Shown piece after piece: positions 1,638 through 28,822 of a stretch of DNA of 40,712 bases. The notes under the pieces are model-generated. The model ran no database searches. It was not told where the DNA came from and saw only the letters and a list, made by a program, of their open reading frames with translations. Within the stretch, counting starts at the first letter, position 1, and each line of letters starts with the position of its first letter. Position numbers and translations under genes: made by a program. Origin of the DNA: Oscillospiraceae bacterium (GTDB lineage: Bacteria; Bacillota; Clostridia; Oscillospirales; Ruminococcaceae); assembly GCA_009777835.1 (NCBI GenBank), contig WRKZ01000009.1, positions 1 to 40,712 of the forward strand. Reading direction: 5' to 3'.

Positions 1638-1717
1638 TATACTCTTTAACTCCGAAAATTCCTACGGAATTTTCTCCGCAGGGCGAACAAAGCCCGCCCT
1701 TTGGCACTCCGTTATAC
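1638..1717 (-). repeat. Family A palindromic repeat, one unit, inverted orientation
   Basis: The core at 1646-1706 is the reverse complement of the unit seen at 17317, 25397 and 28612: GAGTTAAA end, AATTCC/GGAATT palindrome, GCAGGGCG...GCCCGCCC arm, and TTTGGCA end. TATACT (1638) and GTTATAC (1711) lie at the two edges. The element sits just downstream of the lipoprotein stop codon. Confidence 0.85.
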
Positions 1718-1727
1718 ACCCTTAATT

Positions 1728-2309
1728 TCAATCAAGCGGAATCAATATACCGGGCATTTCCGCGGGCTGATTGCCCGCTGTGACGAGCGGGGAAACAACA
1801 ACGTCGGAAAAAACAGCTTCAATAGACGAACCCGGGATTTTAAGCGCGATTGGTTCAAGACTCTTCTTATCAAAGGTTAATTCGTACAACCCCGACTTTG
1901 CGGTGATTGTGATGATTTCACCTGCGGAAATCGCTTCCCTTCCCTCGAAACTGATTGCACTCTCGAAAGCCTCTATAAAAGCTTCATACACCCCCGTAGT
2001 CTCCGAAGCGTTCTCGTTGAACGAAAACTCCAACCCCTCGAAGGTCGCGGTTGTCTTTCCGTTATCATAGGTGAGCGACATACCTTCCAGGGCATACGGC
2101 TCAAAGAGGGTGATTTCCCATTGTTCGGTGTTGGTACGCACGAATAATGCCGTTGCATTGAATTCACCGTATTGTATATCAGCCGTAAATTTATACGATT
2201 TGTCGATTTTCAGCTTTTGCGGGTCGATTTTTCCGTCGGCGGAACAAGCGTTCAACAGTAGGCACAGCACCATCACACAAAGAGTAAGGCTGTTTCGGAT
2301 TTTTCTCAT
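1728..2309 (-). CDS. Putative lipoprotein
   Basis: 193 residues. The N-terminus is a classical type II signal (positively charged MRKIR, hydrophobic core, LLNAC lipobox with Cys22), so the protein is probably tethered to the outer face of the membrane. The remainder is beta-rich with paired strands (YKFTADIQYGEFNATALFV) and resembles the small LolA/LppX-like lipoprotein fold found in many Firmicutes; that assignment is inference. The start is supported by GGAG 10 bases upstream. It is a single-gene unit, with a 9-bp inverted repeat about 45 bases upstream of the ATG and a family A repeat right after the stop. Confidence 0.8.
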   Translation of the reverse strand: MRKIRNSLTLCVMVLCLLLNACSADGKIDPQKLKIDKSYKFTADIQYGEFNATALFVRTNTEQWEITLFEPYALEGMSLTYDNGKTTATFEGLEFSFNENASETTGVYEAFIEAFESAISFEGREAISAGEIITITAKSGLYELTFDKKSLEPIALKIPGSSIEAVFSDVVVSPLVTAGNQPAEMPGILIPLD

Positions 2310-2354
2310 TACAATTTCTCCAATTTCTCGATTTGCAGTAAATATTAAGGAGCA

Positions 2355-2374
2355 ACAAATGTCTTGACATTTGT
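2355..2374. promoter_or_regulatory. 9-bp perfect inverted repeat, operator-like
   Basis: ACAAATGTC-TT-GACATTTGT lies 46-65 bases upstream of the lipoprotein ATG. It is a perfect dyad with a 2-base centre and no T tract, so it looks more like a protein-binding site than a terminator. No convincing -35/-10 pair could be placed next to it. Confidence 0.4.
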
Positions 2375-2533
2375 GCGACTTACTTAATTTGCCGGCTGTA
2401 GCGGTTACCCAAAGGGCAAGCCCTCTTGAAACATTTATATTGTCGGAAATGCTATTTATTCCGACATGAGGAAAAAATTTTTTTCACGGCTGTTATTGAA
2501 AGTAAGGGTGTAATATCCCCTTGAGGCGGCTCT

Positions 2534-2570
2534 CTCGCCCGTAGGGCGAGGGGTGCAGGGCTTGCCCTGC
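2534..2570. repeat. Double palindrome in the gene-free stretch 2310-2923
   Basis: CTCGCCC-GTA-GGGCGAG (2534-2550) is followed by GCAGGGC-TT-GCCCTGC (2555-2570). A related AGGGC-AA-GCCCT lies near 2413-2424, and TGTCGGAA...TTCCGACA lies at 2441-2466. The pattern resembles other short intergenic palindromic repeats in this window but not families A to C exactly. The rest of 2375-2660 shows no gene. Confidence 0.55.
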
Positions 2571-2670
2571 GATGTTACCTTACATTGGGCAATATTTCCA
2601 TGATTTTGCTTTTCAACAATACATATGTTTTCTCATGATAAAGCGGGGGCGATTAACAAGCGGTTTATAA

Positions 2671-2775
2671 CGTTTTCAACGAAGTTTTCCACAGAACCGC
2701 CGAGCAAACAAGCAAATTTGTTGAAAACTCTCTCTTTTAAGAACAAGTTTTCAACAGTTTCAACAGTTTTCCACA
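2671..2775. other. Cluster of DnaA-box-like sequences
   Basis: TTTTCCACA occurs at 2685-2693 and 2767-2775; each differs by one base from the consensus TTATCCACA. Three or more TTTTCAAC motifs (near 2673 and 2748, and inverted near 2720) lie between and beside them in an AT-rich stretch. No dnaA, dnaN or other origin gene is nearby, so an origin is unlikely. DnaA titration or transcription control is possible. Confidence 0.3.
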
Positions 2776-2923
2776 AAAAAGACCGAGTCTCGCATAAAAA
2801 TTACAGATTGTAAAAACGTTACCCTGCCAAAGCTTGAATATAAGCGGAAATTTTTCCGATAATACGCACGGTATACTATTTTCGACTATTTTTTGGCTAT
2901 TTTCCAAAAGGAGGGAAACCAAC

Positions 2924-3190
2924 ATGATTAAAGGTGTAAACAAGCTCATCGTAGAAGTCTCAAACCCTGAATCAGAATTTTTCGAAAGGGCGATTTTCTT
3001 CGTTAAGCCGCAGAAAAAAGACACTCCGCCGAAAGAACTAAACAAAAGTGCCGACGCGCTCCTGCTTAAACAGGCTCGCTTCGGCACCGGGAAAAACCAT
3101 CACAAAAAAGGCGTTCCTTTTGGGATTACTTTTGCGGGGGCGGCAGGATTCGGGGCGGCAGTTACCGCGGTTCTGTTAAAAGTCTTGTAG
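2924..3190 (+). CDS. Small conserved protein of unknown function
   Basis: 88 residues beginning MIKGVNKLIVEV. The ATG at 2924 is chosen because AGGAGGG lies 9 bases upstream; the frame extends further upstream but without a ribosome site. The N-terminal half (KGVNKLIVEV..PESEFFERAIFFV) has the look of a small protein recurring in Clostridia, but I know no function for it. A basic segment (GTGKNHHKKGVPFG) leads to a C-terminal hydrophobic stretch of about 20 residues, probably one membrane anchor with the N-terminus inside. It is convergent with the next gene, 21 bases away. Confidence 0.7.
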   Translation: MIKGVNKLIVEVSNPESEFFERAIFFVKPQKKDTPPKELNKSADALLLKQARFGTGKNHHKKGVPFGITFAGAAGFGAAVTAVLLKVL

Positions 3191-3211
3191 TCATGGAAGC
3201 AAGTTCCGTGA

Positions 3212-4048
3212 CTATGCCCGGAAAAACCATGCCTTAAACGCTTCAAAAAGGACTACACGGGAGAACATCAGGAACATGAACGTTAGGCTAAATCCGGAGC
3301 GTGGGATTGAAAACTCGCTATAATCGTCGTCGATTCTTCCGGAAGTCCCGCTCTTCTCGTACTTTTCATAAGAAAGCGGAACGTAATCCCCGCTGTCCAT
3401 CAACTCCTCGATTTGCGCAATGGTCATGATTCTGCTTTCGCTGATTATAACCCCGATTAACTCGTTATCTTGGGTGTAAACCGGCGCGAGGTAGTCCGAG
3501 TTGGAGTACCCCGCCTCGCTAAACTGCAAATCGGAAGAAGTATAGTACAGATATCCACCGTCAACGGCGGTGATTTTCGCGCTGTATTCGTAACCGATGA
3601 TTCCGCCGAATGTATAGGAGTAGATTTTGACAGAATCCCCCACCGAAAATTCGGTCGCCCTTTCGGGGAGTTGCAATTCGCTTCCAAACACTCGATAAAT
3701 AGCGCAATTGTTGCTCTTAAAAACCCCTATCGGAATAGCCGGGTCGAAAAGCGCGGTATCGTCAGCGTTTCCGCAACGATAGGACGTGATTTCATAAATA
3801 TCATTGACATAATCCGTAGTGCTGTAAAACGGTGAATAGTTCGCAGACAGCCCGATTGCGAGCCGCTCACCGTTTTCGTCGCTGCCGAAGACCGTCAACA
3901 AAGAATAATAACCGGTAATGTACCCTTCTTCGTCATAGTCTCCGATTGCTTTACCATGAGAATAAGGCACGGCAATCGCATTTATGCCCAGGGACAGCGC
4001 AATCAATCCGGCGCACAGAGACAAAACCGATTTTTTCAAACTTTTCAT
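3212..4048 (-). CDS. Membrane-anchored, trypsin-like domain protein, probably inactive
   Basis: 278 residues from the ATG at 4048, which has AGGGGGA 6 bases upstream. Residues 1-27 are a Sec signal sequence. The middle shows the order of a trypsin-like serine protease: FSVGDSVKIYSYTFGG, an ITAVDGGYLYYTS strand, then a segment where GNSGGPV would stand but reads YSNSDYLAPVYTQDNELIGVI. The nucleophile motif GxSGGP is not recognisable, so catalysis is doubtful. A linker with acidic and Ser residues leads to a C-terminal hydrophobic helix ending in FRA, a second anchor. Expected outside the membrane. The protease relationship is inference from motif order. A promoter is present at 4086-4114. Confidence 0.65.
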   Translation of the reverse strand: MKSLKKSVLSLCAGLIALSLGINAIAVPYSHGKAIGDYDEEGYITGYYSLLTVFGSDENGERLAIGLSANYSPFYSTTDYVNDIYEITSYRCGNADDTALFDPAIPIGVFKSNNCAIYRVFGSELQLPERATEFSVGDSVKIYSYTFGGIIGYEYSAKITAVDGGYLYYTSSDLQFSEAGYSNSDYLAPVYTQDNELIGVIISESRIMTIAQIEELMDSGDYVPLSYEKYEKSGTSGRIDDDYSEFSIPRSGFSLTFMFLMFSRVVLFEAFKAWFFRA

Positions 4049-4085
4049 AATAATCCCCCTAATATTATATAATTTCATTATTTTC

Positions 4086-4114
4086 AGTATATCATAAATT
4101 GCCATGAATTTCAA
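4086..4114 (-). promoter_or_regulatory. Sigma-A promoter for the trypsin-like membrane protein
   Basis: On the minus strand TTGAAA (4114-4109), 17 bases, then TATACT (4091-4086). The predicted start is near 4079, giving a leader of about 30 bases. Confidence 0.75.
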
Positions 4115-4234
4115 GCGTTATTTTTAAATTCCACAGCGTTTGGGAATTATTTACTATGCAGAATTTGTATAAAAGAGCCCCTGCAGACAATACTTTTGAA
4201 AGTGGCGAGAGTCTGAAAAGAAAGGGCGAATCAC

Positions 4235-4264
4235 CCCGCATAATCAAGTCGGGATTTATGCGGG
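4235..4264 (+). promoter_or_regulatory. 9-bp hairpin in the sigG leader
   Basis: CCCGCATAA (4235-4243) pairs perfectly with TTATGCGGG (4256-4264). The hairpin ends 24 bases before the sigG ATG, and no T tract follows. It may limit translation or mark a binding site. Upstream, GTATA (4167) and GACAATACT (4186) loosely resemble a forespore sigma-F promoter with a short spacer. Confidence 0.4.
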
Positions 4265-4287
4265 AAGGGTGCGCATGGTCATAGATT

Positions 4288-5061
4288 ATGTACTTTAACA
4301 AGGTAGAAATCAGCGGTGTAAATACAGCGAATCTAAAAGTTTTGAAAGAAGCCGAGAAAATACGGCTTCTAAAATTAATAAAAGAAAACGGCGATATGCA
4401 AGCGCGGGAAGAGCTGATTAACGGGAATCTTCGCCTTGTGTTGAGCGTTATTCAGCGTTTCGCGGGGAGGGGCGAAAACCCCGACGATTTGTTCCAGGTC
4501 GGTTGTATCGGATTGATTAAAGCAATAGACAATTTCGATGTAAGCTTGAACGTAAAGTTCAGCACCTACGCAGTCCCGATGATACTGGGTGAAGTTAAAC
4601 GCTATCTGCGCGACAACAATCAAATCAGGGTATCGCGTTCGTTGCGGGATTTAGCCTATCGCGCCATGCAAGCGAAAGAGAAACTAATCAACGAGAAGCA
4701 AGCCGAACCCAGCGTGGATGAAATCGCGAAGGAAATCGATGCCAAACGTGAAGACATCGTACTTGCCCTTGAAGCAATCAGCGAGCCGGTGTCCCTGTAC
4801 GAACCTGTTTTCTCGGAATCGGGGGATACTATATATGTAATGGACCAACTCGGCGATAATAATGACGATAATAACTGGTTGGACGAAATCGCGCTGAAAG
4901 AGGCAATCAATCATCTGGGACAACGCGAGAAAAAAATCCTCAGTCTGAGATTTTTCCAGGGGAAAACTCAAGTAGAAGTCGCACAAGAAATCGGGATTTC
5001 ACAGGCACAGGTTTCTCGGCTTGAAAAAGGTGCGTTGAACAAGATTAAGCGAAAAATCTAG
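4288..5061 (+). CDS. sigG: RNA polymerase sporulation sigma factor SigG
   Basis: 257 residues, the usual length. It opens with the SigG signature NKVEISGVNTANLKVL. Sigma-70 region 2 follows (NLRLVLSVIQRF, DDLFQVGCIGLIKAIDNFD, KFSTYAVPMILGEVKRYLRDN), then region 3 (RVSRSLRDLAYRAMQ) and region 4 with its helix-turn-helix (GKTQVEVAQEIGISQAQVSRLEKGAL). It directs late forespore transcription during endospore formation, usually after activation by sigma-F. It stands alone here rather than behind spoIIGA-sigE, as in Bacillus. No strong Shine-Dalgarno is seen before the ATG. SigF is the main alternative, but the N-terminus is SigG-like. Confidence 0.92.
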   Translation: MYFNKVEISGVNTANLKVLKEAEKIRLLKLIKENGDMQAREELINGNLRLVLSVIQRFAGRGENPDDLFQVGCIGLIKAIDNFDVSLNVKFSTYAVPMILGEVKRYLRDNNQIRVSRSLRDLAYRAMQAKEKLINEKQAEPSVDEIAKEIDAKREDIVLALEAISEPVSLYEPVFSESGDTIYVMDQLGDNNDDNNWLDEIALKEAINHLGQREKKILSLRFFQGKTQVEVAQEIGISQAQVSRLEKGALNKIKRKI

Positions 5062-5095
5062 AAAAACACCCTCCTGTTCGGATGAACAGGAGGGT
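5062..5095 (-). terminator. Terminator between sigG and the HD-GYP gene
   Basis: ACCCTCCTGTTC (5068-5079) and GAACAGGAGGGT (5084-5095) form a perfect 12-bp stem with a GGAT loop. On the minus strand TTTTT follows (5066-5062), so it best serves the HD-GYP gene. The stem may also end sigG transcripts. Confidence 0.75.
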
Positions 5096-5106
5096 GACGT
5101 GCTTCT

Positions 5107-6348
5107 TCAAATATGCTTCATACGCACACAATGGAACTTCTCGCCGGTCTCAACCACCTTGCCCGAAACGTTTACAATCGGATAAAGCAGGTTGCGCGGA
5201 TTCACAAGGAGGACTTGGGCTTCTTTCCCGTCATTCATGATGATTTCTTTACCCTTGAGCTCTTCAATCATACAGTTAATGAATATATTCACGTATTTGA
5301 TGTCTAATTCGGAATATCCTTCCTGTGCGAACTCATTCAAAATCACAAAAGGCGAATGTGGGTCTTTATACACGCGTTTCGTTACCATTGCATCGTATAT
5401 ATCGGAAATTGCAGTTACCCGCGCAAACTCACTAATCTGAACAGCATCCAGCTTCAGCGGATAACCCGTTCCGTTGACTTTTTCGTGATGTTGAATCACC
5501 CCGTCAAGGATAGTCTTGTTTTTGATTCCCGATTTAATCAGCGTTTCCAGCGAAAGCACCGGGTGTTTCTTGATTTCGGCGAATTCTTCTTCGGTCAGTC
5601 GGGATGGTTTGTTAAGAATATCACGGTCTACCTTCAGTTTACCGATGTCGTGCAGAAGCCCGATTTCGACCAGTTCGGCTTGGGCGGCAGAATCCAACCG
5701 CATCCATTTACCCATCAGCCCGTTCAGGAATGCCACGTTAAGACTATGTGTCAGTAAGTACTCGTCTTCGTCACGGATTCGGCTGATTGTCTGGATAATC
5801 ATAGCAGGGTCAGACAGATTAACCTGCTCCCTCATTTCTTTCGAGAGGGATTCGCACTGATCCTTATTGACTTTTCCTGTCACTGCCGCCTGTTCGATTA
5901 CTTTTTCGGTTTCATTACGGAACCCATTGTATTGTTCTATGACTTCGCGCAGCTTTTTCGCATACGGTTCTTCTTTTGCGGGGTCTCCCGCTTTCTGTGA
6001 CTTCACAAGTTCAGAAATAGGGATTGTGTTGGTAGCACTTTTATCCCAGAACTTTTCCCCGTTACGAATCGCCCGGACTTCACTAAGACTGAACTCCAGA
6101 AAAATATCTTTGTCGAAAAGTTCTTCCACCATGTACTTCCACGGAAGATACACCGTCCCCGACGGGAAAAGCACCCGTTGTAATCGTGCGATTAATTCGG
6201 GAGTAACCGTGACATTCTCGCACAACATAGAATATTCACCTTGAACGTCCAATTCTTCCGTTCGGATAAGCTTCTTTTGATAGACCGCGGTATCCAAATA
6301 CAGACCTTTGGGCAACACCCTTAATTTCACCGGAACAAGCTCAAACAT
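5107..6348 (-). CDS. HD-GYP domain phosphodiesterase
   Basis: 413 residues. Residues 1-120 form an unassigned N-terminal domain like those that precede HD-GYP in two-domain cytoplasmic proteins. The HD-GYP domain spans about 190-350: HSLNVAF, HDIGK (His233-Asp234), KHPVLS, QHHEKVNGTGYP (287-297) and AISDIYDAMVTKRVYK. All metal ligands are visible, so it is probably an active hydrolase of cyclic di-GMP or a related dinucleotide. About 50 C-terminal residues form a small beta domain. No membrane segment is seen. It is last in the leftward series, 32 bases after trpS, with GGGAGAAAAG before the ATG. Confidence 0.9.
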   Translation of the reverse strand: MFELVPVKLRVLPKGLYLDTAVYQKKLIRTEELDVQGEYSMLCENVTVTPELIARLQRVLFPSGTVYLPWKYMVEELFDKDIFLEFSLSEVRAIRNGEKFWDKSATNTIPISELVKSQKAGDPAKEEPYAKKLREVIEQYNGFRNETEKVIEQAAVTGKVNKDQCESLSKEMREQVNLSDPAMIIQTISRIRDEDEYLLTHSLNVAFLNGLMGKWMRLDSAAQAELVEIGLLHDIGKLKVDRDILNKPSRLTEEEFAEIKKHPVLSLETLIKSGIKNKTILDGVIQHHEKVNGTGYPLKLDAVQISEFARVTAISDIYDAMVTKRVYKDPHSPFVILNEFAQEGYSELDIKYVNIFINCMIEELKGKEIIMNDGKEAQVLLVNPRNLLYPIVNVSGKVVETGEKFHCVRMKHI

Positions 6349-6380
6349 AACTTTTCTCCCTGTTTATGAATTTTTACTTC

Positions 6381-7385
6381 CTACTGATACTGGACAAACC
6401 CGATTTTCTTGTACACTTTGCGGAGCGTTTTCCCCGAAATACGGAGCGACTTTTCCGCCGCCGACTTCATACATCCCTCAAGATACGCTTTATCGGCGAT
6501 TAACCGTTCATACTCAGTTTGAATCGGTGCAAAAGCATCGGCAACCGCTTCCCCGACTGCGATTTTAAAATCACCGTAACCCTTCCCGGCGAACTCACCC
6601 TCACAATCGGATATACTTTTACCGCTTACCGCCGAATAAATTGAGAGCAGATTGTTTATACCGGACTTTTCGACATTCCCCTCATCGAAAACAATTTCCG
6701 CATCCGAATCTGTGACCGCCCGCTTGAATTTTCGTATAACCTCATCACGGCTGTCGAGTAAACCGACACTTGCCCCGGGATTCTCGTCCGATTTCGACAT
6801 CTTTTTAGTCGGCTCGGTAAGCGACTTCACTTTAGCTGCCGAGGTCGGAATATACGGTTCAGGCAGGGTAAACGTCTCTGAATAAGCATTATTGAACCGT
6901 ACCGCAATATCCCGCGATAATTCGAGATGTTGTTTCTGGTCTGCCCCGACCGGAACTAAGTCTGCTTGATACAGAAGAATATCCGCCGCCTGTAAAATCG
7001 GATAAGTGAACAGCCCCGCATTTATGTTTTCCTCGTTTTTCGCGCTCTTGTCCTTGAACTGTGTCATACGGCTCAACTCACCGAATTGCGTATAACAAGA
7101 CAGTGTCCACGCCAATTCGGCATGATGCTGATTATGACTCTGCACGAAAAGCAATGTCTTTTCGACATCAATCCCCAACGCCATAAGAATAGCGTAGGTT
7201 TCCTTCGTCTGCGCACGGAGTTTCGCAGGTTCTTGCCGCAGTGTAATAGCATGGAGGTCTACCACACTGTAGATACAGTCGTATTCGTCCTGCATATTAA
7301 CCCAGTTTTTGAGTGCGCCGAGGTAATTCCCCAAATGCGGAGTGTTAGTCGGCTGAATCCCCGAAAAAATTATTTTTTTTGACAT
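6381..7385 (-). CDS. trpS: Tryptophanyl-tRNA synthetase
   Basis: 334 residues, a normal length for the bacterial class Ic enzyme. The N-terminus has SGIQPTNTPHLGNYLGAL, carrying the HIGH-type signature as PHLGN, and the second signature is KMSKSDENPGASVGLLD. DLVPVGADQKQHLELSRDIA is typical of the family. It charges tRNA-Trp in the cytoplasm. The 74-base gap upstream has a short GTCAAG/CTTGAC hairpin, but I see no T-box or tryptophan leader peptide. The Shine-Dalgarno is weak. It lies between DUF1385 and HD-GYP genes, with no functional link apparent. Confidence 0.96.
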   Translation of the reverse strand: MSKKIIFSGIQPTNTPHLGNYLGALKNWVNMQDEYDCIYSVVDLHAITLRQEPAKLRAQTKETYAILMALGIDVEKTLLFVQSHNQHHAELAWTLSCYTQFGELSRMTQFKDKSAKNEENINAGLFTYPILQAADILLYQADLVPVGADQKQHLELSRDIAVRFNNAYSETFTLPEPYIPTSAAKVKSLTEPTKKMSKSDENPGASVGLLDSRDEVIRKFKRAVTDSDAEIVFDEGNVEKSGINNLLSIYSAVSGKSISDCEGEFAGKGYGDFKIAVGEAVADAFAPIQTEYERLIADKAYLEGCMKSAAEKSLRISGKTLRKVYKKIGFVQYQ

Positions 7386-7459
7386 CTTTTTAATGCCCTT
7401 GCCTTTCCGAGCCGTAAAAAGCTCACAAATCTCGTCAAGTCACCCTGCTTGACTACAGC

Positions 7460-8557: not shown

Positions 8558-8593
8558 ACACCTCTTGAATTTTTTTATAATGGGGGATTCGCT

Positions 8594-10781: not shown

Positions 10782-10799
10782 ATCAAGCGACTCCTTTTC

Positions 10800-12230: not shown

Positions 12231-12246
12231 TATACCTGTCCCTGTA

Positions 12247-12365
12247 AAGCAGCCTGCCGCCCGGCAGAGCCGGTCGCACCGCTGCTCTTGTTTTGCTTTT
12301 ACTTTCGTCAAGCAGCCTGCCGCCCGGCAGAGCCGGTCGCACCGCTGCTCTTGTTTTGCTTTACT
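12247..12365 (-). repeat. Family B palindromic repeat, two tandem units
   Basis: Two copies with a 63-bp period (AAGCAGCCTGCCGCCCGGCA begins at 12247 and 12310). They read AAAGCAAAACAAGAGC on the minus strand, then a G/C-rich imperfect palindrome (GACCGGC...GCCGGGC) and TGCTTGAC. The array fills the gap between the membrane protein stop (12361) and the lipoprotein start (12230). It is open in the lipoprotein frame but unlikely to be translated, since the signal peptide begins after it. Confidence 0.88.
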
Positions 12366-13398: not shown

Positions 13399-13465
13399 AT
13401 AAACTTGTTCTCTCTTTCTATATTGCTTTGTTATTACAAAGTTTGTCATTTCAAATTTTCAGAAT

Positions 13466-14251: not shown

Positions 14252-14263
14252 AACCTTCGCCTC

Positions 14264-16389: not shown

Positions 16390-16395
16390 AACACC

Positions 16396-16425
16396 AGTAT
16401 ACCATATAATAGTGACTTCTGTCAA
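16396..16425 (-). promoter_or_regulatory. Sigma-A promoter of proBA
   Basis: Minus strand TTGACA (16425-16420), 18 bases, TATACT (16401-16396). The predicted start falls at about 16389, almost on the ATG of the leader ORF, so the pre-insertion proB mRNA would have been leaderless or nearly so. Confidence 0.75.
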
Positions 16426-16453
16426 GTACTTGTAAAATTCGAACAAGCAATGG

Positions 16454-17455
16454 TCAGAACTCTTGTTCGGCCCTCTTTGCCGCCGCATAAATCGAAACGT
16501 AGCTGTCGTACCGCCCCTGCGATATTCCTCCCGTTTCCCCGGACTCTACCGCCGCACAAATCACGCAACCTTCTTCCCCGTTATGCGTACAGCCCCCGAA
16601 CTTACACTTCCCCAAAAACGGTGCAAATTCCCGAAAATGCAGTGCGACTTCACAAGCGGGAATGTCGGAATATGCCGTAACATCCACCGTAGAAAATCCC
16701 GGTGTGTCGGCAATATACCCCCCATTTTCAAGAAATCGAAACTCCACTGTGCGGGTGGTATGCTTCCCCCTGCCTAATTTTTTTGAGATTTCGGCGGTCG
16801 GCAACTCCAACCCGGGAATAAGCCGATTAATCAAGCTGGTCTTCCCCACCCCGGTATTCCCGATTAAAGCCGACGTTTTCCCGCAGAGGAACTCGGTCAA
16901 GCGCGAAATCTCGTAATTGAAAAAGCAAGCAAAGCCCGCCGATTGATAAACATCAATCAGCAGGGCTTTTTTGGGTTCAACCAGGTCGGTTTTCGAGAAG
17001 ACCAAAACACTTTCAATCCCTTTACAATCGAAGATAACCGTCATTCTGTCGATTATAAGCGGGTTCGGTTTAGGCTCACATGCCGAAACTACTATAACCG
17101 CACAATCAAGATTAGCCAAAGGCGGACGAACAAGCAAGTTCTTCCTCTCGTGAATCTCACTGATGATATACTCATTCCCGTCGGTATCAAGAGTTACGAA
17201 ATCACCCGCACAAGGACTGATTTTCTTGAGACGGAACAAACCCTTCGCTTTACAGATGAGGGTGTTGCCGTTGTCGCATTTAACGGTGTAATTTCCCGCA
17301 ACCGACGAAATGATTCTGCCAAAGAGTAGGCTTTGCTCGCCCTGCGGAGGAAATTCCGCAGGAATTTTCGGAGTTGAATTGCCAAAGGGCGGGCTTTGCT
17401 CGCCCTGCGGAGGAAATTCCGCAGGAATTTTCGGAGTTAAAGAATCCATCACCAT
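16454..17455 (-). CDS. rsgA: Ribosome small subunit-dependent GTPase A, with repeat-encoded N-terminus
   Basis: 333 residues. The OB-fold begins at GRIISSVAGNYTVKC (residue 46). The circularly permuted GTPase domain follows in G4-G1-G3 order: FSKTDL, GNTGVGKTSLINRL, DTPGF. The zinc site CKFGGCTHNGEEGCVI lies near the C-terminus. It aids late maturation of the 30S subunit. Residues about 5-46 are two copies of a 21-residue peptide encoded by family A repeats (TPKIPAEFPPQGEQS). The ATG at 17455 overlaps the end of prkC (ATGGTGA), and no Met or obvious start codon lies between the repeats and GRII, so this extension is probably made. Confidence 0.93.
   Translation of the reverse strand: MVMDSLTPKIPAEFPPQGEQSPPFGNSTPKIPAEFPPQGEQSLLFGRIISSVAGNYTVKCDNGNTLICKAKGLFRLKKISPCAGDFVTLDTDGNEYIISEIHERKNLLVRPPLANLDCAVIVVSACEPKPNPLIIDRMTVIFDCKGIESVLVFSKTDLVEPKKALLIDVYQSAGFACFFNYEISRLTEFLCGKTSALIGNTGVGKTSLINRLIPGLELPTAEISKKLGRGKHTTRTVEFRFLENGGYIADTPGFSTVDVTAYSDIPACEVALHFREFAPFLGKCKFGGCTHNGEEGCVICAAVESGETGGISQGRYDSYVSIYAAAKRAEQEF
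17317..17442 (+). repeat. Family A repeat, two tandem 63-bp units inside rsgA
   Basis: Units at 17317-17379 and 17380-17442 are nearly identical: TGCCAAAG, GGGCTTTGCTCGCCCTGCGG, AATTCCGCAGGAATT, and TTCGGAGTT. The array lies antisense to transcription but is open in the rsgA frame; 126 bp is a multiple of three. ATTCT/AGAAT sequences bound it in inverted orientation. Confidence 0.92.
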
Positions 17456-19563
17456 CCGGGCTGTGGAGCGGGTTCGGCGGTGGTAGCGGCAGAAGTAGCC
17501 GCCGCACTCGGATTCAGCTTATACAGCACGTCTCCGTGGGTATTCGCAGTGACCCTCACCGGTTCTTCCGGCCCGAAATCTATTTCCTGCTCACTGTAAA
17601 GTGCGTCTGCAACCCCGGGATTCCGCGGATTGTGCAAATAGAGTGAATACGGTTGAAGTCCCGCATCCTCAAACTCGATTGTTATCGTTCCCCCCGCACT
17701 GATTCGTCTGGTCTCGCTCTTTATGAGCGCGTCATCTTTATACAATTTGAACACATAATCGCCGAGGAAACTTTCCGGGGTATCGGCAGGAACCGCAAAA
17801 GAAATGTGGAAAGTCCGATAAACCACGGCGGGCGGCCCTGTTCCTATGGTAATTTCAACAACGAAATCATTCGGCACTATTTTATCTTTAGGCTCATTCT
17901 GGGCTATGACTTTGCCCTTCTGTTCCTCACTGCTCTCTTCGTAAACGATTTTCGGAACCAATCTATAATCGCCGGCAAGCTGCCGCGCCGAATATTCCGA
18001 CAGATTCAGAAAATCGGGGATTTTTGTTTCGTGAACTATAATTTCCGAACCTATACTCACATAAATAATCACCCTATCATTACGAGAAAGCCTGTCGCCT
18101 GCGTTTTTATCACTCTTAACATAGTGGGCCTCAGGGATTTCATCATTCCAAATTTGACGCTTATCAACATGAAGCCCCATAGATTCAAGTCTCTCAACTA
18201 CGAAATCAGCCGTCAACAGTGTACCGTCGTCGAAGTCCGGGAAGATAATCACCTCTTCCCCGCTGCTGACCTGAACCCTCACCTGGGTGTTAGGCTTAAC
18301 CGAAGCCCCCGCACGGATTTCCTGGTCTATGATTTCATTCAGCGGAACATCGGCGGAAGGTACCTGTTCGGGTATAAGCTGAAGAAAATCATACTTAGTC
18401 TTGGCTTCTTCGTAATTCATTCTGCGCAAATCCGGCATGGTATGGTTCTGGCTGAAAAGTCCGCCTTCACCGCCGATTACCCCGCCGAAAAGCAAAGCCA
18501 CCACCACCGCCGCAACAATAATCACCGCCGATGCTACCGCAAACAGAATCGGTAACAACGGTGACGCTCTCTCAATGACTTCATCATCATCGTAATCATC
18601 GTCGTCATCTTCGTACAATGAAGTGTCAACGGCGAGCGGTTCGGGTTTAGACGGCGGGGCAACCGGATTCCCCGCCCTGTCGAGGTGTTTCGGTTCACCG
18701 TCCGGTGTGGAATACTTATATTCGAAAACAATGTTAGGATTCTTCTCGATTTCCTGTAAATCACCCAGCATTTCCCCGGCGGTCTGATAACGTCTGACCG
18801 GTTCTTTCTGCATTGCGCGCAGGGTGATTTCCTCCAACCCTTCGGGAATGGAAGAATTAATCAAGGACGGTCTTTTCGGTTCTTTATTCGTGTGCATCAA
18901 AGCGATTGCCAACGCATCATTTCCGTCGAACGGCTTGATTCCCGTAAGCATTTCATACAACATCACCCCCACAGAGTAGAGGTCGCTCTTCTCGTCGGTG
19001 ATTCCCCCGCGTGCTTGTTCGGGACTGATATAATGCACCGAACCGATTGCTTTTTCCGAGGCGGTCTTGTCAATCTCACGATTAAACCGCGCAATCCCGA
19101 AGTCCATGACTTTAATCGTGCCGTCCTGCAACAACATGATGTTCTGGGACTTTATATCACGATGAACAATCCCCCGGTCGTGCGCGTGCTGCAACGCCTT
19201 GAGAATCTGGTTGACGTACTTCAACGCTTCTCTCCATTTAAGGACACCTTGCCGCTCAATATACTCAATCAAGGTTATACCGTCAATGTATTCCATCACG
19301 ATAAACTGCACGCTTTCGGTGAAGCCCACATCGAAAATTTTCACGATGTTCCGGTGCGAAAGCAACGCAATCGCTTTAGACTCGTTACGGAATCTCCGCA
19401 AAAACTCCTCCGACTCTGCCAGTTCGTTCTTAAGAATTTTCACGGCAACGATTTTTTCTTCGACCGTATCTTCGGCTTTGTAAATCTCAGCCATTCCGCC
19501 CGAACCGATGTGTTCGAGCAGTTGGTATCTCCCGTCCAACTTAATACCGATGTAGTTTTCCAT
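17449..19563 (-). CDS. prkC: PASTA-domain Ser/Thr protein kinase (PrkC/Stk1)
   Basis: 704 residues. The cytoplasmic Hanks-type kinase has the Gly loop IGSGGMAEIYKA, Lys42, HRDIKSQN (Asp136) and DFGIARF, followed by an acidic juxtamembrane segment (EDDDDDYDDDE). One membrane helix lies at about 342-367. Outside are three PASTA repeats (about 375-575; MPDLRRMNYEEAKTKY, FPDFDDGTLLTADFVV, IPDFLNLSEYSARQ) that bind muropeptides in this family, then a beta domain and a Thr/Ala/Pro-rich tail. It controls growth, cell-wall synthesis and spore germination in relatives. It follows its phosphatase by 21 bases and overlaps rsgA. GGGAG precedes the start. Confidence 0.95.
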   Translation of the reverse strand: MENYIGIKLDGRYQLLEHIGSGGMAEIYKAEDTVEEKIVAVKILKNELAESEEFLRRFRNESKAIALLSHRNIVKIFDVGFTESVQFIVMEYIDGITLIEYIERQGVLKWREALKYVNQILKALQHAHDRGIVHRDIKSQNIMLLQDGTIKVMDFGIARFNREIDKTASEKAIGSVHYISPEQARGGITDEKSDLYSVGVMLYEMLTGIKPFDGNDALAIALMHTNKEPKRPSLINSSIPEGLEEITLRAMQKEPVRRYQTAGEMLGDLQEIEKNPNIVFEYKYSTPDGEPKHLDRAGNPVAPPSKPEPLAVDTSLYEDDDDDYDDDEVIERASPLLPILFAVASAVIIVAAVVVALLFGGVIGGEGGLFSQNHTMPDLRRMNYEEAKTKYDFLQLIPEQVPSADVPLNEIIDQEIRAGASVKPNTQVRVQVSSGEEVIIFPDFDDGTLLTADFVVERLESMGLHVDKRQIWNDEIPEAHYVKSDKNAGDRLSRNDRVIIYVSIGSEIIVHETKIPDFLNLSEYSARQLAGDYRLVPKIVYEESSEEQKGKVIAQNEPKDKIVPNDFVVEITIGTGPPAVVYRTFHISFAVPADTPESFLGDYVFKLYKDDALIKSETRRISAGGTITIEFEDAGLQPYSLYLHNPRNPGVADALYSEQEIDFGPEEPVRVTANTHGDVLYKLNPSAAATSAATTAEPAPQPGW

Positions 19564-19584
19564 AGCTATACTCCCTTCACGCGC

Positions 19585-20331: not shown

Positions 20332-20383
20332 AGATTCTTTAATCCTTCAACATAGTTTATAGTTATTTAAATTTAGATACGTA

Positions 20384-22551: not shown

Positions 22552-22555
22552 GGAT

Positions 22556-23290
22556 TTATCGCCGTTTCATCATCGAAAGTAGCCGCAACAACTGCACAAG
22601 GGAAGCCAACAATGCCGCGAAGTAGGTGAATGCCGCCGCGGTAAGCGTCTTCCGTGCGCCGGAGATTTCTTTACCTACGAGATAGCCCTTCGACGAAATG
22701 GTGTTCATGGCGCGTCTGCTTGCATCGATTTCGAGGGGGAGTGTCACCAATTGAAACACGAACACAAACGCATACAATATGATTGCCATCCAGGCTAACT
22801 CCATTTTTTCGAGCCATATACCGATGAGCAACAAGAAAATCCAGATTCGCGAACCGAAGTTCACTACCGGGAATATAGCGTGACGGATTTTAATCGGTGC
22901 GTACCCGACCGCATGCTGAATAGCATGACCGACTTCGTGTGCGGCAACGCCGATTGCCCCTACCGTGTCTTTATCGTGAACCGATTCCGACAGGGCGACA
23001 ACCTGACTCCGCGGGTCGTAATGGTCGGTGAGATTTCCGGACTGTTTGATAATCTGCACATGATGCAATCCGTTATCGTTGAGCATTTCCCGCGCAATTT
23101 CGGCGGCGGTTCGCCCCCCTTGGGTTCGAACTTTGTTGTATTTGCTGAACGTCATCCTCACTATGAGGGAAGCCAACATCGCCAACAACATCGCACCGAT
23201 TGCCAGCAAATACCACATCTCATCGGATATGTGCTGCTCTACTGCGCCTTGGGACTCAAGTCCCGCGTTCAAAACATTGGTTATAAGCAT
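22556..23290 (-). CDS. Membrane zinc metallopeptidase (YugP family)
   Basis: 244 residues. The N-terminal membrane helix (about 25-46) is followed by the zinc site HEVGHAIQH, with the two His and Glu of HExxH and a further His, then three to four more hydrophobic helices. An upstream NDNGLHHVQI strand and SVHDKDTVGAIGVAAHE are typical of the neutral zinc metallopeptidase family DUF2673-like/YugP. The substrate is unknown. AAGGAGG precedes the ATG inside the end of fmt, with a 10-base overlap. It is an insertion relative to the Bacillus def-fmt-rsmB order but common in Clostridia. Confidence 0.88.
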   Translation of the reverse strand: MLITNVLNAGLESQGAVEQHISDEMWYLLAIGAMLLAMLASLIVRMTFSKYNKVRTQGGRTAAEIAREMLNDNGLHHVQIIKQSGNLTDHYDPRSQVVALSESVHDKDTVGAIGVAAHEVGHAIQHAVGYAPIKIRHAIFPVVNFGSRIWIFLLLIGIWLEKMELAWMAIILYAFVFVFQLVTLPLEIDASRRAMNTISSKGYLVGKEISGARKTLTAAAFTYFAALLASLVQLLRLLSMMKRR

Positions 23291-24198
23291 GATTTTCCTC
23301 CTTTAAAATCTTTAAAGCCTTTCAAAAATTCTGTAGCGGACATTCGTTTACCGCCTTCGGGTTGGATTTCGGTGAGGATTATCGTCTCTTCACCGTTTTT
23401 ACCGCATTTCAGCGGAATTCCCGCCTGCTCATAAGCTTCACCCGCCACCGCACGATAGATTTTCAGCCGCTTCCCGCTTTCTCCCCAAAAAGTGAACGCA
23501 CAAGGCGAATCGGCGAGACCGCGAATGAAATCACACAATTTCTTTGCCGAATGCGAACAATCGAGCCGACACTCATCTTTTTTAAACATTGCCGCATAGG
23601 TGGAATCATCGTGATTCTGCTTTATCGGCAAAAGCGTTTCAATCCCATCGAGTGCGCGTACAATCAATCCCCCTCCGACCTTCGCCAAAACGTCATGTAA
23701 CTGTGAAGCGTTCATATCGGGCGAAATCTCGACCTTTTCGCTCAACAGCATATCTCCGGTATCGATTCCGCTGTCCATCTGTATGATGGTAATCCCGGAT
23801 TCACTCTCCCCCGACATAATGCACCGATTAATGGGTGCCGCCCCCCTGTACTTCGGCAGAAGAGACGCATGAACGTTCAAACAGCCGTATTTCGGAAAGT
23901 CAAGCACGCTTTGCGGAAGAATCATCCCGTATGCCACGACTACGATACAGTCGGGGTTATGTTCACGAAGGATTCGCAAGACTTCTTCTTCGTTTTCTCC
24001 TCTCAATGAAGTCGGTTGATACACCGGGATTCGGTGTTGGTTCGCGACTTCTTTCACCGGCGAAAACGTGATTTTCTTACCCCGATTTCTGGGTTTATCT
24101 ATGCGGGTGAAGACCGCGGTAACTTCATGTGCGGAATCCAGCAGACTCTCCAACGTGGAGACTGCGAAATCGGGCGTTCCCATAAAAACTACTTTCAT
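23281..24198 (-). CDS. fmt: Methionyl-tRNA formyltransferase
   Basis: 305 residues from the ATG at 24198 (MKVVFMGTPDFAV), the universal start of Fmt. The open frame continues upstream only through the family C repeat and antisense to def, so those codons are not used. The formyl-THF hydrolase-type catalytic motif is clear: VHASLLPKYRGAAPINRCIM and MDSGIDTGDMLL. The C-terminal OB domain (FTFWGESGKRLKIYRA) follows. It formylates initiator Met-tRNA. It is paired with def upstream. Confidence 0.96.
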   Translation of the reverse strand: MKVVFMGTPDFAVSTLESLLDSAHEVTAVFTRIDKPRNRGKKITFSPVKEVANQHRIPVYQPTSLRGENEEEVLRILREHNPDCIVVVAYGMILPQSVLDFPKYGCLNVHASLLPKYRGAAPINRCIMSGESESGITIIQMDSGIDTGDMLLSEKVEISPDMNASQLHDVLAKVGGGLIVRALDGIETLLPIKQNHDDSTYAAMFKKDECRLDCSHSAKKLCDFIRGLADSPCAFTFWGESGKRLKIYRAVAGEAYEQAGIPLKCGKNGEETIILTEIQPEGGKRMSATEFLKGFKDFKGGKSCL

Positions 24199-24208
24199 GT
24201 TTGTTTTC

Positions 24209-24268
24209 GAATGGGGGAGAATCCCCCAAACCCCCTTTTTGAAATGGGGGAAAATCCCCCAAACCCCC
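24209..24268. repeat. Family C repeat: two G/C hairpin units between def and fmt
   Basis: Two units, 24209-24240 and 24241-24268, each read AATGGGGGA-AAATCCCCCAAACCCCC with a GGGGG/CCCCC hairpin. They begin right after the def stop codon and end 10 bases before the fmt ATG, so the Shine-Dalgarno region of fmt abuts the array. Similar GGGGGATT units are common in low-complexity intergenic DNA of Clostridia. Confidence 0.8.
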
Positions 24269-24781
24269 TCATCTGCGCTTTTTCTTGCGCTTACGATTTC
24301 TCTGGCGTTTTGCTTTTTCGAGTTCTTCCTCGTCCTCGACCCGTTCATCACCTATATCGGTGAAAAGAATCCCGTTCAAATGGTCGATTTCGTGACAAAT
24401 CGTTATAGCAAACACACCATCTGCATCTATGTTGAATTCTTTCCCATGGCGATTCCATGCCCGGACCCGAATTTGCTCGGGTCGTTCTACGTACCACCAT
24501 TCTCCCGGCGAAGAAAGGCACCCCTCGACTTCGCGCTGTTTCCCTTTCATAGATGTTATGAGCGGGTTAATGAACTCAATCATCTCATCATCGTTTTCAA
24601 TCACGATTACTCGTCTTAGTATTCCCACTTGGGGAGCGGCTAACCCAACCCCGCCGAATTTATCCATCGTCTGCTGCATATCATCGAGCAGAACCCATAA
24701 CTTATCGTCAAAAACGGTAACTTCACGGCTTTTCTTCCGCAAAGTATCCTCCTCGATTGTTACCACACGTCTTAACGCCAT
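24269..24781 (-). CDS. def: Peptide deformylase
   Basis: 170 residues. All three motifs are present: GVGLAAPQVG, EGCLSSPGEWW with the metal-binding Cys, and HEIDHLNG. It removes the formyl group from nascent proteins, using Fe2+ or another metal. The C-terminus is extended by a strongly basic tail of about 20 residues (KAKRQRNRKRKKKRR), which could contact the ribosome, as does the C-terminal helix of some deformylases. It is first in the leftward cluster, with a promoter at 24841-24869. The Shine-Dalgarno is weak. Confidence 0.96.
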   Translation of the reverse strand: MALRRVVTIEEDTLRKKSREVTVFDDKLWVLLDDMQQTMDKFGGVGLAAPQVGILRRVIVIENDDEMIEFINPLITSMKGKQREVEGCLSSPGEWWYVERPEQIRVRAWNRHGKEFNIDADGVFAITICHEIDHLNGILFTDIGDERVEDEEELEKAKRQRNRKRKKKRR

Positions 24782-24840
24782 TTCTTACGAATCATCCCTT
24801 CGCTTTTCATTTTTCACCGATAACACCGATAATCCAATAC

Positions 24841-24869
24841 ATTATACCACAACTTAAAAAGAAATTCAA
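24841..24869 (-). promoter_or_regulatory. Sigma-A promoter of the def-fmt-...-rsgA cluster
   Basis: Minus strand TTGAAT (24869-24864), 17 bases, TATAAT (24846-24841). The predicted start is near 24834, about 53 bases before the def ATG. Confidence 0.8.
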
Positions 24870-24940
24870 GAATTATTTTGTCCGTATAATAATATAATGT
24901 TCTTGTCAAGATTATGCGAATGTAAGCGGAGGTTACTCTC

Positions 24941-25348
24941 ATGGGCAGAAGGTCAAAGCCGCCGGTACAACGGCGATTCAGGGTATACATAGCTTCGGTG
25001 GCGGCAGGCGCGATTTCGTCGGTGACGGCGTTGGTGCTTTTCGCGCTGTTGTCGTTCTTGCTGAAACTTCCGGTCGGGTACAGCGGATTCTTCTCGCTGC
25101 TCGCTTTCGGAATAGGCTGTCTCGTAGCGGGCTTCTCGGCGGGAATGTTGAAACGTCAAGGCGGTCTCGCCTCGGGAATTGCGGCGGCGTTGCTGTTTAC
25201 GCTTCCGGTCGCGCTGATTGGTTTCGTTTTAGGGGGATTGTCAATCACCGCCGGCGAATTAAACCTAACCGGAAAAATCATAGTCGCGGTTCTCGGCGGT
25301 GCAGTCGGCGGCGTTCTGGGGGTGAACAAAAACGGCGGCTTCAAGTAA
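24941..25348 (+). CDS. TIGR04086-family membrane protein (YrzE-like)
   Basis: 135 residues. After a basic N-terminus (MGRRSKPPVQRRFR) there are four membrane helices separated by very short loops, rich in Gly and Ala (GFSAGMLKRQGGLASGIAAAL; VLGGAVGGVLGV). Size, helix count and Gly pattern match the TIGR04086/YrzE family, whose function is unknown. GCGGAGG lies upstream of the ATG at good spacing. It is a single gene, divergent from def. Confidence 0.75.
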   Translation: MGRRSKPPVQRRFRVYIASVAAGAISSVTALVLFALLSFLLKLPVGYSGFFSLLAFGIGCLVAGFSAGMLKRQGGLASGIAAALLFTLPVALIGFVLGGLSITAGELNLTGKIIVAVLGGAVGGVLGVNKNGGFK

Positions 25349-25373
25349 GTCTGATGATTTTTCAAAATTTCCC

Positions 25374-25403
25374 TTGACGTACTCTTACTAAATGTTGTAT
25401 ACT
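25374..25403 (+). promoter_or_regulatory. Sigma-A promoter of pflBA at the edge of the repeat array
   Basis: TTGACG (25374-25379), 18 bases, TATACT (25398-25403). The -10 box coincides with the left terminal sequence of the family A array, so the three repeat units are transcribed as a leader of roughly 200 bases before pflB. Confidence 0.7.
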
Positions 25404-25603
25404 GGTAAGGACGAGCTTTGCTCGCCCTGCGGAAGAAATTCAGCGTGAATTTCCGGAGTTAAAAGAATACCAAAGGACGAGCTTTGCTCGTCCTGCGGAG
25501 GAAATTCAGCATGAATTTCGGAGTTAAAAGAATACCAAAGGGCGAGCTTTGCTCGTCCTGCGGAGGAAATTCAGCATGAATTTCCGGAGTTAAAAGAGTA
25601 TAC
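25397..25603 (+). repeat. Family A repeat, three tandem units in the pflB leader
   Basis: ACGAGCTTTGCTCG recurs at 25411, 25477 and, as GCGAGC, at 25542 (periods 66 and 65). Each unit ends in GGAGTTAAAAGA. The array is bounded by GTATACT at 25397 and AGTATAC ending at 25603, in inverted orientation. The right boundary overlaps the sequence just before the pflB ribosome site (GAGGTGG). Confidence 0.9.
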
Positions 25604-25615
25604 GAGGTGGTTTCT

Positions 25616-27844
25616 ATGAGGTCAGAGTGGGAAGGGTTTATCGACGGCAGATGGAGCGGTGAGGTTGATGTACGCGGTTTTATTCAACGAAACTATGCCC
25701 CTTATGAAGGTGACGAGGGGTTTTTGAGCGATGTTTCCGAGAAAACCAAAGCATTATGGGAGAAAGTCCTGATTTTAATGCGGGAAGAAAACGAAAAAGT
25801 CGTACTGGATGCCGAAGACAAAATCCCGTCCGGTATTACTTCACACGCGCCGGGATATGTAGCGCAAGAACTGGAAGAAATCGTGGGGCTTCAGACGGAC
25901 AAGCCTTTCAAACGCGGAATCATGCCCAACGGCGGACTCCGTGTCGTAAAGCGGGCATTGGAATCCTATGGGTTTGAACTCGACAAAAAAACAGAAAAGA
26001 TTTTCGCCGAATACAGGAAGACCCACAACGACGGCGTGTTCGATGCTTACACCGAAGAAGTCCTCAAGGCGCGGCGTTCGGGGATTATCACCGGTCTGCC
26101 CGATGCTTACGGTAGAGGGAGAATCATCGGTGACTATCGGCGGGTTGCCCTTTACGGAACAGATTTGCTGATTGCCTTCCGCAAGCAAGACTTGAAAACA
26201 CTGGAAGTCCCGGATATGCTGTCGGACGTAATCCGTGACCGTGAAGAACTTTCCGAGGGAATCCGCGCATTAAAAGAACTTGCCGCTATGGCGGCGACTT
26301 ACGGGTTTGACGTTTCGCGACCTGCCGCCAACGCAAAAGAAGCGATTCAGTGGACTTATTTCGGCTACCTCGCCGCCGCAAAAGAACAAGATGGTGCCGC
26401 CATGTCACTGGGGAGGGTCACGACCTTCCTCGACATCTATATTGAGAGGGATTTGGAGCGAGGAATAATCACCGAATCGCAAGCGCAGGAATACATGGAC
26501 CATTTCTGCATGAAACTGCGCATGATTCGCTTTTTGCGTACGCCCGATTATAATGAGCTGTTCTCGGGAGACCCGACCTGGGTTACAGAATCAATCGGGG
26601 GGATGGGAACAGACGGTCGCACGCTCGTAACCAAGAACAGTTTCCGTATGCTTCACACGCTTCGGACGTTGGGGCCCGCCCCCGAGCCGAACATGACGGT
26701 ACTGTGGTCGGTGAACCTGCCGATAAACTTCAAGCATTTCTGTACCGCGACTTCGATTGAGACCAGCAGTATTCAATACGAGAACGATGACCTTATGCGT
26801 CGCTACTGGGGTGACGATTATTCGATTGCCTGCTGCGTCTCGGCAATGAAGACCGGTAAACAAATGCAGTTCTTCGGTGCGCGGGCAAACCTCGCTAAAG
26901 CGTTGCTTTATGCAATTAACGGCGGGCGGGACGAAATCAGCGGAGAGCAAATCGCGCCGGAGTTCGCGCCGATTTCTTCCGAATACCTCAACTATGATGA
27001 AGTCATGCGAAAGTTTGAACAGATTCTTGAGTGGCTGTCGAGATTATATGTCAATGCCCTGAACATCATTCATTATATGCACGATAAATATTGTTTCGAG
27101 CGATTGCAAATGGCATTGCACGACAAAGAAATCGTCCGAACCCTCGCCTGCGGAATCGCCGGATTGTCGGTGGTCGCCGATTCGCTTTCGGCTATTAAGC
27201 ACAGTCGTGTGAAAATCATACGCAACGAACAAGGTCTGGCAGTGGACTATCAAGTCGAGGGTGAATACCCGTGTTTCGGCAATCACGATGACTCGGTTGA
27301 CGAAATCGCACGGGATGTGCAGAAGACTTTCATGCAGAAACTCGAAAAGCATAAGACCTATCGTAACGCAATCGCGACCCTTTCGGTGCTGACCATTACC
27401 TCCAACGTAGTCTACGGGAAGAAAACGGGTTCAACCCCCGACGGAAGAAAAGCGGGTGAGGCGTTCGCCCCTGGCGCGAACCCCATGCACGGCCGCGACA
27501 AGAAAGGCGCGCTCGCTTCCTTGTGTTCTGTTGCGAAACTGCCTTACGAATATGCTAAAGACGGAATTTCCTACACTTTCTCGATTATTCCCAAGGCATT
27601 GGGAAAAGACAAGGAAGAGCGAATCAAGAACCTGGCTTTCATCATAGATGCGTACTTCTATGATAACGGTCATCACATTAACGTGAACGTCTTCGACAGG
27701 GAAACGCTGATGGATGCCATGGAACATCCCGAATTATACCCGCAATTAACAATCCGTGTTTCGGGCTATGCGGTGAACTTCGTGAAACTCACAAAAGAAC
27801 AGCAACTGGATGTGTTGAATAGGACGTTCCATGAAAAGTTTTGA
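25616..27844 (+). CDS. pflB: Formate C-acetyltransferase (pyruvate formate-lyase)
   Basis: 742 residues from the ATG at 25616. An in-frame GTG at 25607 is inside the Shine-Dalgarno (GAGGTGG) and is rejected. The adjacent catalytic cysteines are in [13 protein letters not shown], and the glycyl-radical site is RVSGYAVNF (Gly717). It converts pyruvate plus CoA to acetyl-CoA and formate, an oxygen-sensitive step of anaerobic fermentation. Tandem family A repeats lie in its leader. The last 14 bases overlap pflA, its activator. Confidence 0.97.
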
Positions 27845-28589
27845 TACAAACAATGCGGAGAAAAATGGTATAATCCACTCAATCGAGACCTGCGGAACGG
27901 TTGACGGGCCGGGGCTTCGCTATGTTGCTTTTTTTCAAGGATGTCCGTTGCGCTGTAAGTACTGCCATAATCCCGACACCTGGGACTTCAAAGGCGGAAC
28001 CCCCATGTCTGTATCGGAATTGGCGGAAGATGTCTTGAAATACAGTTCCTATATAAACTTCAGCGGCGGCGGATTCACCGCATCCGGCGGAGAACCGCTG
28101 TTGCAAGCCGAATTTATATCCCGGTTATTCAAAACGCTGAAGTCAAAAGGGATTCATACGGCAATCGATACAAGCGGGGCGCGATTCCCGGGCGAAAAAG
28201 ACGTGGAATCCCTGTTACAGTCTACCGATTTGGTTTTGCTGGACATTAAATCAATCACCCCCAAAAAGTATCGTGAAGTAACCGGGCTGGATATCCGTGC
28301 GACCTTGGCGTTCGCCGAAGATTTGAGCGCGAAGGGGATTCCCGCATGGATTCGCTATGTAATCGTACCGGAGCTTACCGACAGCGAAGAAGAGGCGAAA
28401 TCCCTCTGCAAATATCTGTGCGGACTGAACAACATCAAAAAAGTAGAATTACTGCCGTTCCACAAAATGGGCGAACACAAGTGGGAAGCGTTAAATCGCG
28501 CATATACACTGAAAGAAACCCCGCCCCCTTCACCCGACACAATGGAAAAGCTTCACGGCATTTTTGCACAATATCGGCTGCCTGTCTGA
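27831..28589 (+). CDS. pflA: Pyruvate formate-lyase activating enzyme
   Basis: 252 residues. The radical-SAM cluster motif is CPLRCKYC (Cys38, 42, 45), preceded by [14 protein letters not shown], typical of Pfl[12 protein letters not shown] and [15 protein letters not shown] follow. It installs the glycyl radical on PflB using SAM and a 4Fe-4S cluster. The overlap with pflB (14 bases) implies coupled translation. A family A array follows the stop. Confidence 0.97.
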
Positions 28590-28611
28590 TTCTAAATCAA
28601 CCGCTTTCACA

Positions 28612-28822
28612 TATACTGTTATAACTGCCAAAGGGCGGGCTTTACCTGCCCTGCGGAGAAAATTCGGTACGAATTTTCGGAGTTAAACTGCCAAAGGGCG
28701 GGCTTTGCCTGCCCTGCGGAGAAAATTCGGTACGAATTTTCGGAGTTAAACTGCCAAAGGGCGGGCTTTGCCTGCCCTGCGGAGAAAATTCGGTACGAAT
28801 TTTCGGAGTTAAAAAAGTATAT
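28612..28822 (+). repeat. Family A repeat, three tandem 63-bp units between pflA and asnB
   Basis: AACTGCCAAAGGGCGGGCTT begins at 28623, 28686 and 28749, an exact 63-bp period; units 2 and 3 are virtually identical. TATACTGTTATAACTGCC at the left edge and the complement of AGTTAAAAAAGTATA at the right form imperfect inverted termini. It is not a CRISPR: there are no unique spacers. Confidence 0.93.

Follow-up and report, generated by a model that had tools for sequence, protein, structure and literature searches.

A palindromic repeat of about 63 bp occurs as nine units at four loci in the stretch of DNA analysed here (the window), 40,712 nucleotides that make up contig WRKZ01000009.1 of an Oscillospiraceae-like assembly (GCA_009777835.1; 1.74 Mb, 93 contigs, 95% complete). 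The loci hold one, two, three and three units, all located where a preliminary description of this DNA had placed them. That description took the repeat for a dispersed palindromic element, a view borne out by copies throughout the genome and the genus and by orthologues that lack the element at all four sites tested. Its statement that the repeat encodes nothing itself is contradicted by copies that lie in frame within conserved genes.

The repeat and its structure

The first locus is a single full unit, with two hairpins and the tail GGAGTTAAAGAGTATA, which lies between genes on the minus strand (1638..1706). The units of the other three loci are on the plus strand. Two of them (17317..17378 and 17380..17443) are in frame in their minus-strand reading as part of the N terminus of RsgA, the second starting a few codons past the rsgA start codon. 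Three tandem units (25404-25463, 25468-25528 and 25533-25601) form an intergenic array at 25404..25601, co-oriented with and just upstream of a gene for a pyruvate-formate-lyase-like protein (ORF 25607-27844). The last array, also intergenic (28626..28820; units 28626-28687, 28689-28750 and 28752-28820), is co-oriented with an asparagine-synthase gene (28847-30673) that begins 27 nt downstream. The tandem spacing is 63 at 17317-17443, 63 and 63 at 28626-28820, and 66 and 65 at 25404-25601, and the use of both orientations is evident from the 1638 unit, which is 82-92% complementary to the units of the other three loci. Mean identity is 96.8% between units of the same array (9 pairs, 5 arrays) and 87.3% between units of different arrays (69 pairs). 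The units of one array are local tandem duplicates, and the window therefore represents four insertions, not nine.

Each unit consists of hairpin H2 (GGGCGGGCTTTGCTCGCCC), hairpin H3 (GAAAATTCCGTAGGAATTTTC) and the tail GGAGTTAAAGAGTATA, which ends in CGGAGTTAAAGAGTATA. The hairpins are set apart by CGGAG motifs, and some copies outside the window have a third hairpin (TATACC...GGTATA) ahead of H2 and H3. The two hairpins that had been proposed for each unit are supported by folding (shuffle z = -2.2 for the 1638 unit) and by covariation of their arms. Within the species, 26 of 574 cells show a double change, a value reached by none of 500 shuffles. When 63 matches from different species are aligned, 210 of 1142 cells do so (0/500 shuffles), and 3 of 500 shuffles yield as many doubly changed pairs; this alignment was fitted to a covariance model and leans toward the structure. 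The consensus unit is free of stop codons in three of its six frames, one forward and two reverse; a fourth is open when the H3 loop is GCA rather than GTA. The plus-strand frame mainly in use in this genome reads PKGGLCSPCGENS, and its minus-strand counterpart SLTPKIPTEFSPQGEQSPPFG.

Distribution in the genome, the genus and the order

The family extends well past this contig. BLAST gives 36 matches in the genome, their E values ranging from the 4e-34 of the query itself to 1e-6, and a covariance model trained on 30 units gives 38 matches at E <= 1e-7, spread over 29 loci. Two right-end copies outside the covariance-model list were also seen, at L203:1166-2464 (contig C54) and near position 3997 of L202 (contig C24); the former is in frame at the N terminus of a malic enzyme.

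Relatives elsewhere in the genus carry diverged copies of the palindrome, and 19 of 71 genomes have a match at E <= 0.01, this genome counted. Five genomes have at least 15 matches: this one (G000, 43) and four others of the genus (G003, 32; G066, 31; G065, 20; G020, 15). The matches in G065, and many of those in G066, belong to a distant form, which may be a sister family. An order-wide draw with stricter filters yields matches at E <= 0.001 in 7 of 197 genomes, again with this genome counted. Since the remaining six carry only one or two weak matches apiece, strong copies seem confined to the genus. As a check for a phage origin, viral contigs were searched with an exact degenerate pattern, which is sensitive to close copies only, and none matched.

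Copies in frame inside genes

The 29 loci of this genome comprise seven copies internal to genes, five at N termini, three at a 3′ edge and 14 that are between genes or unassignable. The internal copies are in a BaiN-type flavoprotein, NadB, Apt (adenine phosphoribosyltransferase), Cas3, AroC, AddA and Mfd, while the N-terminal copies, for which the starts are inferred, are in RsgA (in the window), CinA, L010, L023 and L025. Sixty rows from six other genomes were read (G020, 13; G003, 25; G066, 11; G065, 8; G027, 2; G064, 1); those of G020 cover all 15 of its matches, and those of G003, G066 and G065 are the higher-ranked matches among those listed. Eight of these rows are internal, in CarB, AspS, a SCIFF-type maturase, ComEC, ArgD, an aldo/keto reductase, homocysteine methyltransferase and an MBOAT protein.

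In 11 of the 15 internal cases, a single family profile or solved chain covers both flanks of the insert (BaiN, NadB, Apt, Cas3, AroC and AddA here; CarB, AspS, ArgD, the aldo/keto reductase and homocysteine methyltransferase in relatives). Mfd, the SCIFF-type maturase, ComEC and the MBOAT protein, in which one side rests on our own reading, are likely in-frame internal copies as well. The inserts are about 18-52 residues long. A clean insertion is seen in AspS of G003, in which residues 24-470 correspond to residues 2-458 of a solved chain and residues 494-613 to 459-578, so that 23 residues are added and none removed. The SCIFF-type maturase of G003 (L102:2450-4045) seems to have a second insert downstream of the palindromic one, a tandem repeat with CNEGIHSPQSEHD twice.

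Since the 15 internal cases were found through uninterrupted frames, all are in frame by construction. The complementary scan for copies that break a frame covered 91 rows, of which 27 were flagged with long frames on both sides and judged mostly on the positions of stops and starts, with Pfam applied to a few; no frame-breaking copy was recognised among them. If each frame had a chance of one third, 11 cases in frame and none out of frame would have an arithmetic probability of about 6e-6, before an open frame is required. An open frame spans the copy in 34 of the 91 rows: 15 internal, five N-terminal (window 17316, L010, L025, L077 and L134) and 14 left uncounted, in which either no family match supports the frame on the flanks of the insert or translation probably begins further downstream. 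Two apparent disruptions were rejected. The copy at L090 (C6:47182) has a stop inside and lies where two convergent frames meet at their 3′ ends, and the genes on either side of L012 encode two distinct proteins, RNase Y and SMC.

Because three of the consensus unit's six frames lack stops, the in-frame copies are presumably translated, as far as can be judged from the sequence.

The RsgA extension

In the window, the gene for the ribosome GTPase RsgA (16454..17455, minus strand) contains two units in frame, which would form an N-terminal extension of about 45 residues from the inferred start. Its ATG overlaps the stop codon of the upstream gene for a PASTA-domain protein kinase (17449..19563, minus strand), and the units begin within a few codons of it. 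Pfam places RsgA_N from residue 46 onwards, in addition to RsgA_GTPase. The nearest relatives are from Oscillospiraceae metagenome-assembled genomes (the three best share 58-61% identity). Upstream of the matched RsgA start, 12 of 16 relatives have at most 27 open codons and one has 51, while three are unreadable there.

The extension is predicted to be disordered. In an AlphaFold2 model based on a 14-row alignment, residues 1-40 have block-mean predicted confidence (pLDDT) values of 34-45 and lack secondary structure. Residue 44 opens the first strand, and beyond residue 40 the value is at least 85 in 18 of 30 blocks; the only further stretches below 50 are residues 157-160 and 222-234.

Empty orthologous sites

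Orthologues without the element were found at each of the four sites checked, AroC, BaiN, AspS and NadB. The AroC insert has 21 residues. A match was present in 62 other genomes, and 13 of 14 other loci queried were recovered; 11 of these 13 have 0-1 residue at the position. The two filled rows (a 15-residue insert in G003 and about seven residues in G066) are unlike the element. An ancestral AroC-loop insert shared with these two genomes was considered and rejected, the DNA there having no recognisable unit. The BaiN insert is absent from all 11 other rows (66 other genomes had a match), two of which have extra residues of unrelated sequence (about 10 in L176 and a few in L183). The AspS insert is likewise absent from all 11 other rows, with four extra residues in L189; all 70 other genomes had a match. 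This genome's own AspS, outside those 11 rows, carries a nearby insert of another family. In NadB, the element is found in none of 10 other genomes, and G003, G067 and G066 hold other extra residues at the site. The different loop insert in NadB of G003 (L206) lies between direct repeats of about 13 nt, TTATTATACCACA, that may represent a target duplication.

Copies between genes

Removal of the 15 internal and seven N-terminal rows from the 91 leaves 69, a few of which may be coding. With a start defined as the first ATG, GTG or TTG that opens 100 codons, a definition that admits some spurious starts, 44 of the 69 rows have a co-oriented start within 60 nt past the 3′ end, against eight in which a start of opposite orientation lies no more than 60 nt from the 5′ end (p = 4e-7). 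The bias in orientation is clearest in G003 (18 vs 3).

Origin and movement

The most probable explanation, held with good confidence, is that the repeat is a non-autonomous palindromic element moved in trans, similar to the Rickettsia palindromic elements (RPEs), which survives between genes, usually co-oriented with them, or in frame inside them. Such an element would be selfish DNA, copied around the genome by an activity supplied in trans, that seems to have been absorbed into functional enzymes. Out-of-frame landings in genes would be purged, while in-frame copies would be translated and tolerated, the internal ones as inserts. Between genes, the copies that survive would mostly be those in the same orientation as the next gene, whose ribosome-binding site would then stay usable.

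This retains the dispersed, trans-moved element of the preliminary description, although not the RAYT partner suggested there. Short palindromes, tandem arrays and both orientations are what would be expected of a REP/BIME-type repeat moved by a RAYT (Y1 HUH) transposase. However, a profile search with the Y1 transposase family PF01797 gives no match in this assembly, none in G003, G065 and G066, and a single weak one in G020. PF01797 is present in 20 of the 71 genomes of the genus, 18 of which have no match to the element at E 0.01, and seven of the 29 loci here are internal to conserved genes rather than extragenic. A REP/RAYT system was rejected as the principal explanation on the PF01797 result and is now very improbable. 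A classical miniature inverted-repeat transposable element (MITE), that is, a deletion derivative of a DNA transposon with TATACT/AGTATA terminal inverted repeats, is unlikely, even though it is the alternative to be taken most seriously. GTATACT- and AGTATAC-like ends had been noted at three of the four window loci, and AGTATA on the right with a TATACT-like sequence on the left is indeed present at three. Genome-wide, the right end is clear and the left end is weaker: 13 of 28 loci finish on the right with AGTATA (0/28 at a control offset), 10 of 28 begin on the left with TATACT, one mismatch being allowed (4/28 at the control offset), and six have both ends. The tail, compared by eye, varies among relatives, with AGTATA nearby in the G064 copy and in some G003 copies and none seen in G020. 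Shared flanks of at least 8 nt, which a MITE with long target-site duplications would be expected to leave, occur in 3 of 25 rows of G003 (control 7%) and in 6 of 19 of G065/G066 (control 16%), where the two longest are repeat sequence itself. They are absent from the 28 loci of this genome, shorter duplications being below the reach of the test, and from 13 rows of G020. Long target-site duplications have no support in this genome, where the flanks show no excess over mismatched pairs (mean longest match 5.71 vs 5.74). Nor was a cognate transposon found, in a genome-wide search limited to PF01797.

The hairpins might instead be conserved for a function in RNA. A regulatory RNA or translation leader, with hairpins in the 5′ untranslated region, would fit both the strong covariation and the co-orientation of most non-genic copies with the next start. 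It is nevertheless improbable, since it leaves unexplained the in-frame copies in the middle of enzymes, which are in both orientations and absent from orthologues, and no Rfam family reaches the gathering threshold within the window. Least credible of all is an insert that is removed from the RNA or skipped by the ribosome, as in intron-like or bypass elements. Stable hairpins within genes would suit such a process, but removal from the RNA would make it unnecessary for an insert to keep the frame and be stop-free. All 15 internal copies, found as they were via open frames, do both, and the 91 rows include no internal copy recognised as frame-breaking.

Several points weigh against the RPE-like interpretation. 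Movement, RNA and protein were not observed, and no mover was found, PF01797 being the sole transposase family searched genome-wide. The genomes are mostly fragmented and the comparison includes no close strain. The in-frame state of the internal cases is given by the way they were found, so that the contrast lies in the lack of frame-breaking copies; because that scan needs 80 open residues on each side and its flagged rows were judged mostly by stops and starts, decayed interruptions could have escaped it. The N-terminal cases rest on inferred starts. In this genome alone the orientation bias is not significant (8 vs 4, p = 0.39), and the number of within-species pairs changed on both sides is matched by 94 of 500 shuffles.

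Other repeats

A second palindromic family of about 60 bp, with the core AAACAAGAG...CTTGACG, has 43 matches in the genome, the query included. Two tandem copies are in frame inside this genome's AspS (L199:3664-3783), and a variant is found at window positions 12244-12362, at the 5′ end of a gene of unknown product. The window also contains two 33-bp repeats (GGGGGA...TCCCCC; 24204-24269) in the N-terminal part of a formyltransferase frame (23281-24351, minus strand), before the conserved domain, and two 81-nt repeats, 90% alike (708-893), inside an ORF without a Pfam match (260-1468, minus strand).

Comparison with known elements and implications

In-frame palindromes in housekeeping genes are described, in the relevant passages of PMC2996958 and PMC10969869, from Rickettsia, Wolbachia and one archaeon, and a passage of the latter, a 2024 review, calls the same in other prokaryotes merely "conceivable". 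The open-licence literature yielded no description of in-frame palindromes from this lineage. Judged by those passages, the element resembles RPEs and the palindromes of Wolbachia and Methanocaldococcus jannaschii in being multi-copy and in frame in unrelated metabolic and housekeeping genes (PMC10969869, PMC2996958). It has palindromic hairpins, inserts in frame in unrelated conserved genes and is absent from orthologues at four sites. However, its length of about 63 bp differs from the roughly 150 bp that the review gives for RPEs in the part concerned (PMC10969869). It is also modular, resides in a Firmicute and has tandem in-frame units in RsgA; this comparison is by description, not by sequence. 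The enterobacterial repeats RU-1 (ERIC), RU-2 (YPAL) and RU-3 are similarly presented in parts of PMC2759123 as small mobile repeats whose open frames become fused to genes; unlike the element, they are 103-168 bp long and belong to another lineage, again compared by description. REP/BIME repeats share the short palindromes in arrays, but here there is no Y1 transposase match and intragenic copies are common. PARCEL repeats are, according to sections of PMC2996958, palindromic, protein-coding and patchily distributed; there they are presented as intragenic tandem repeats, whereas the copies here are mostly single units spread over many enzymes.

A broader proposal, possible though short of probable, is that at least two unrelated palindromic families coexist in this genus and insert translated peptides into core enzymes, that their shape keeps them harmless, that the mover is neither a RAYT nor a classical transposon that leaves long target duplications, and that they are a continuing source of new protein loops and tails in bacteria not known as endosymbionts. 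If true, such harmless shaping would consist of stop-free frames on both strands inside genes, and of co-orientation ahead of the ribosome-binding site between genes. A Firmicute genus in which some genomes have dozens of copies, many of them in frame and with clear empty sites, would allow tests of how selfish DNA becomes protein sequence, of how the element moves, and of which loops tolerate inserts.

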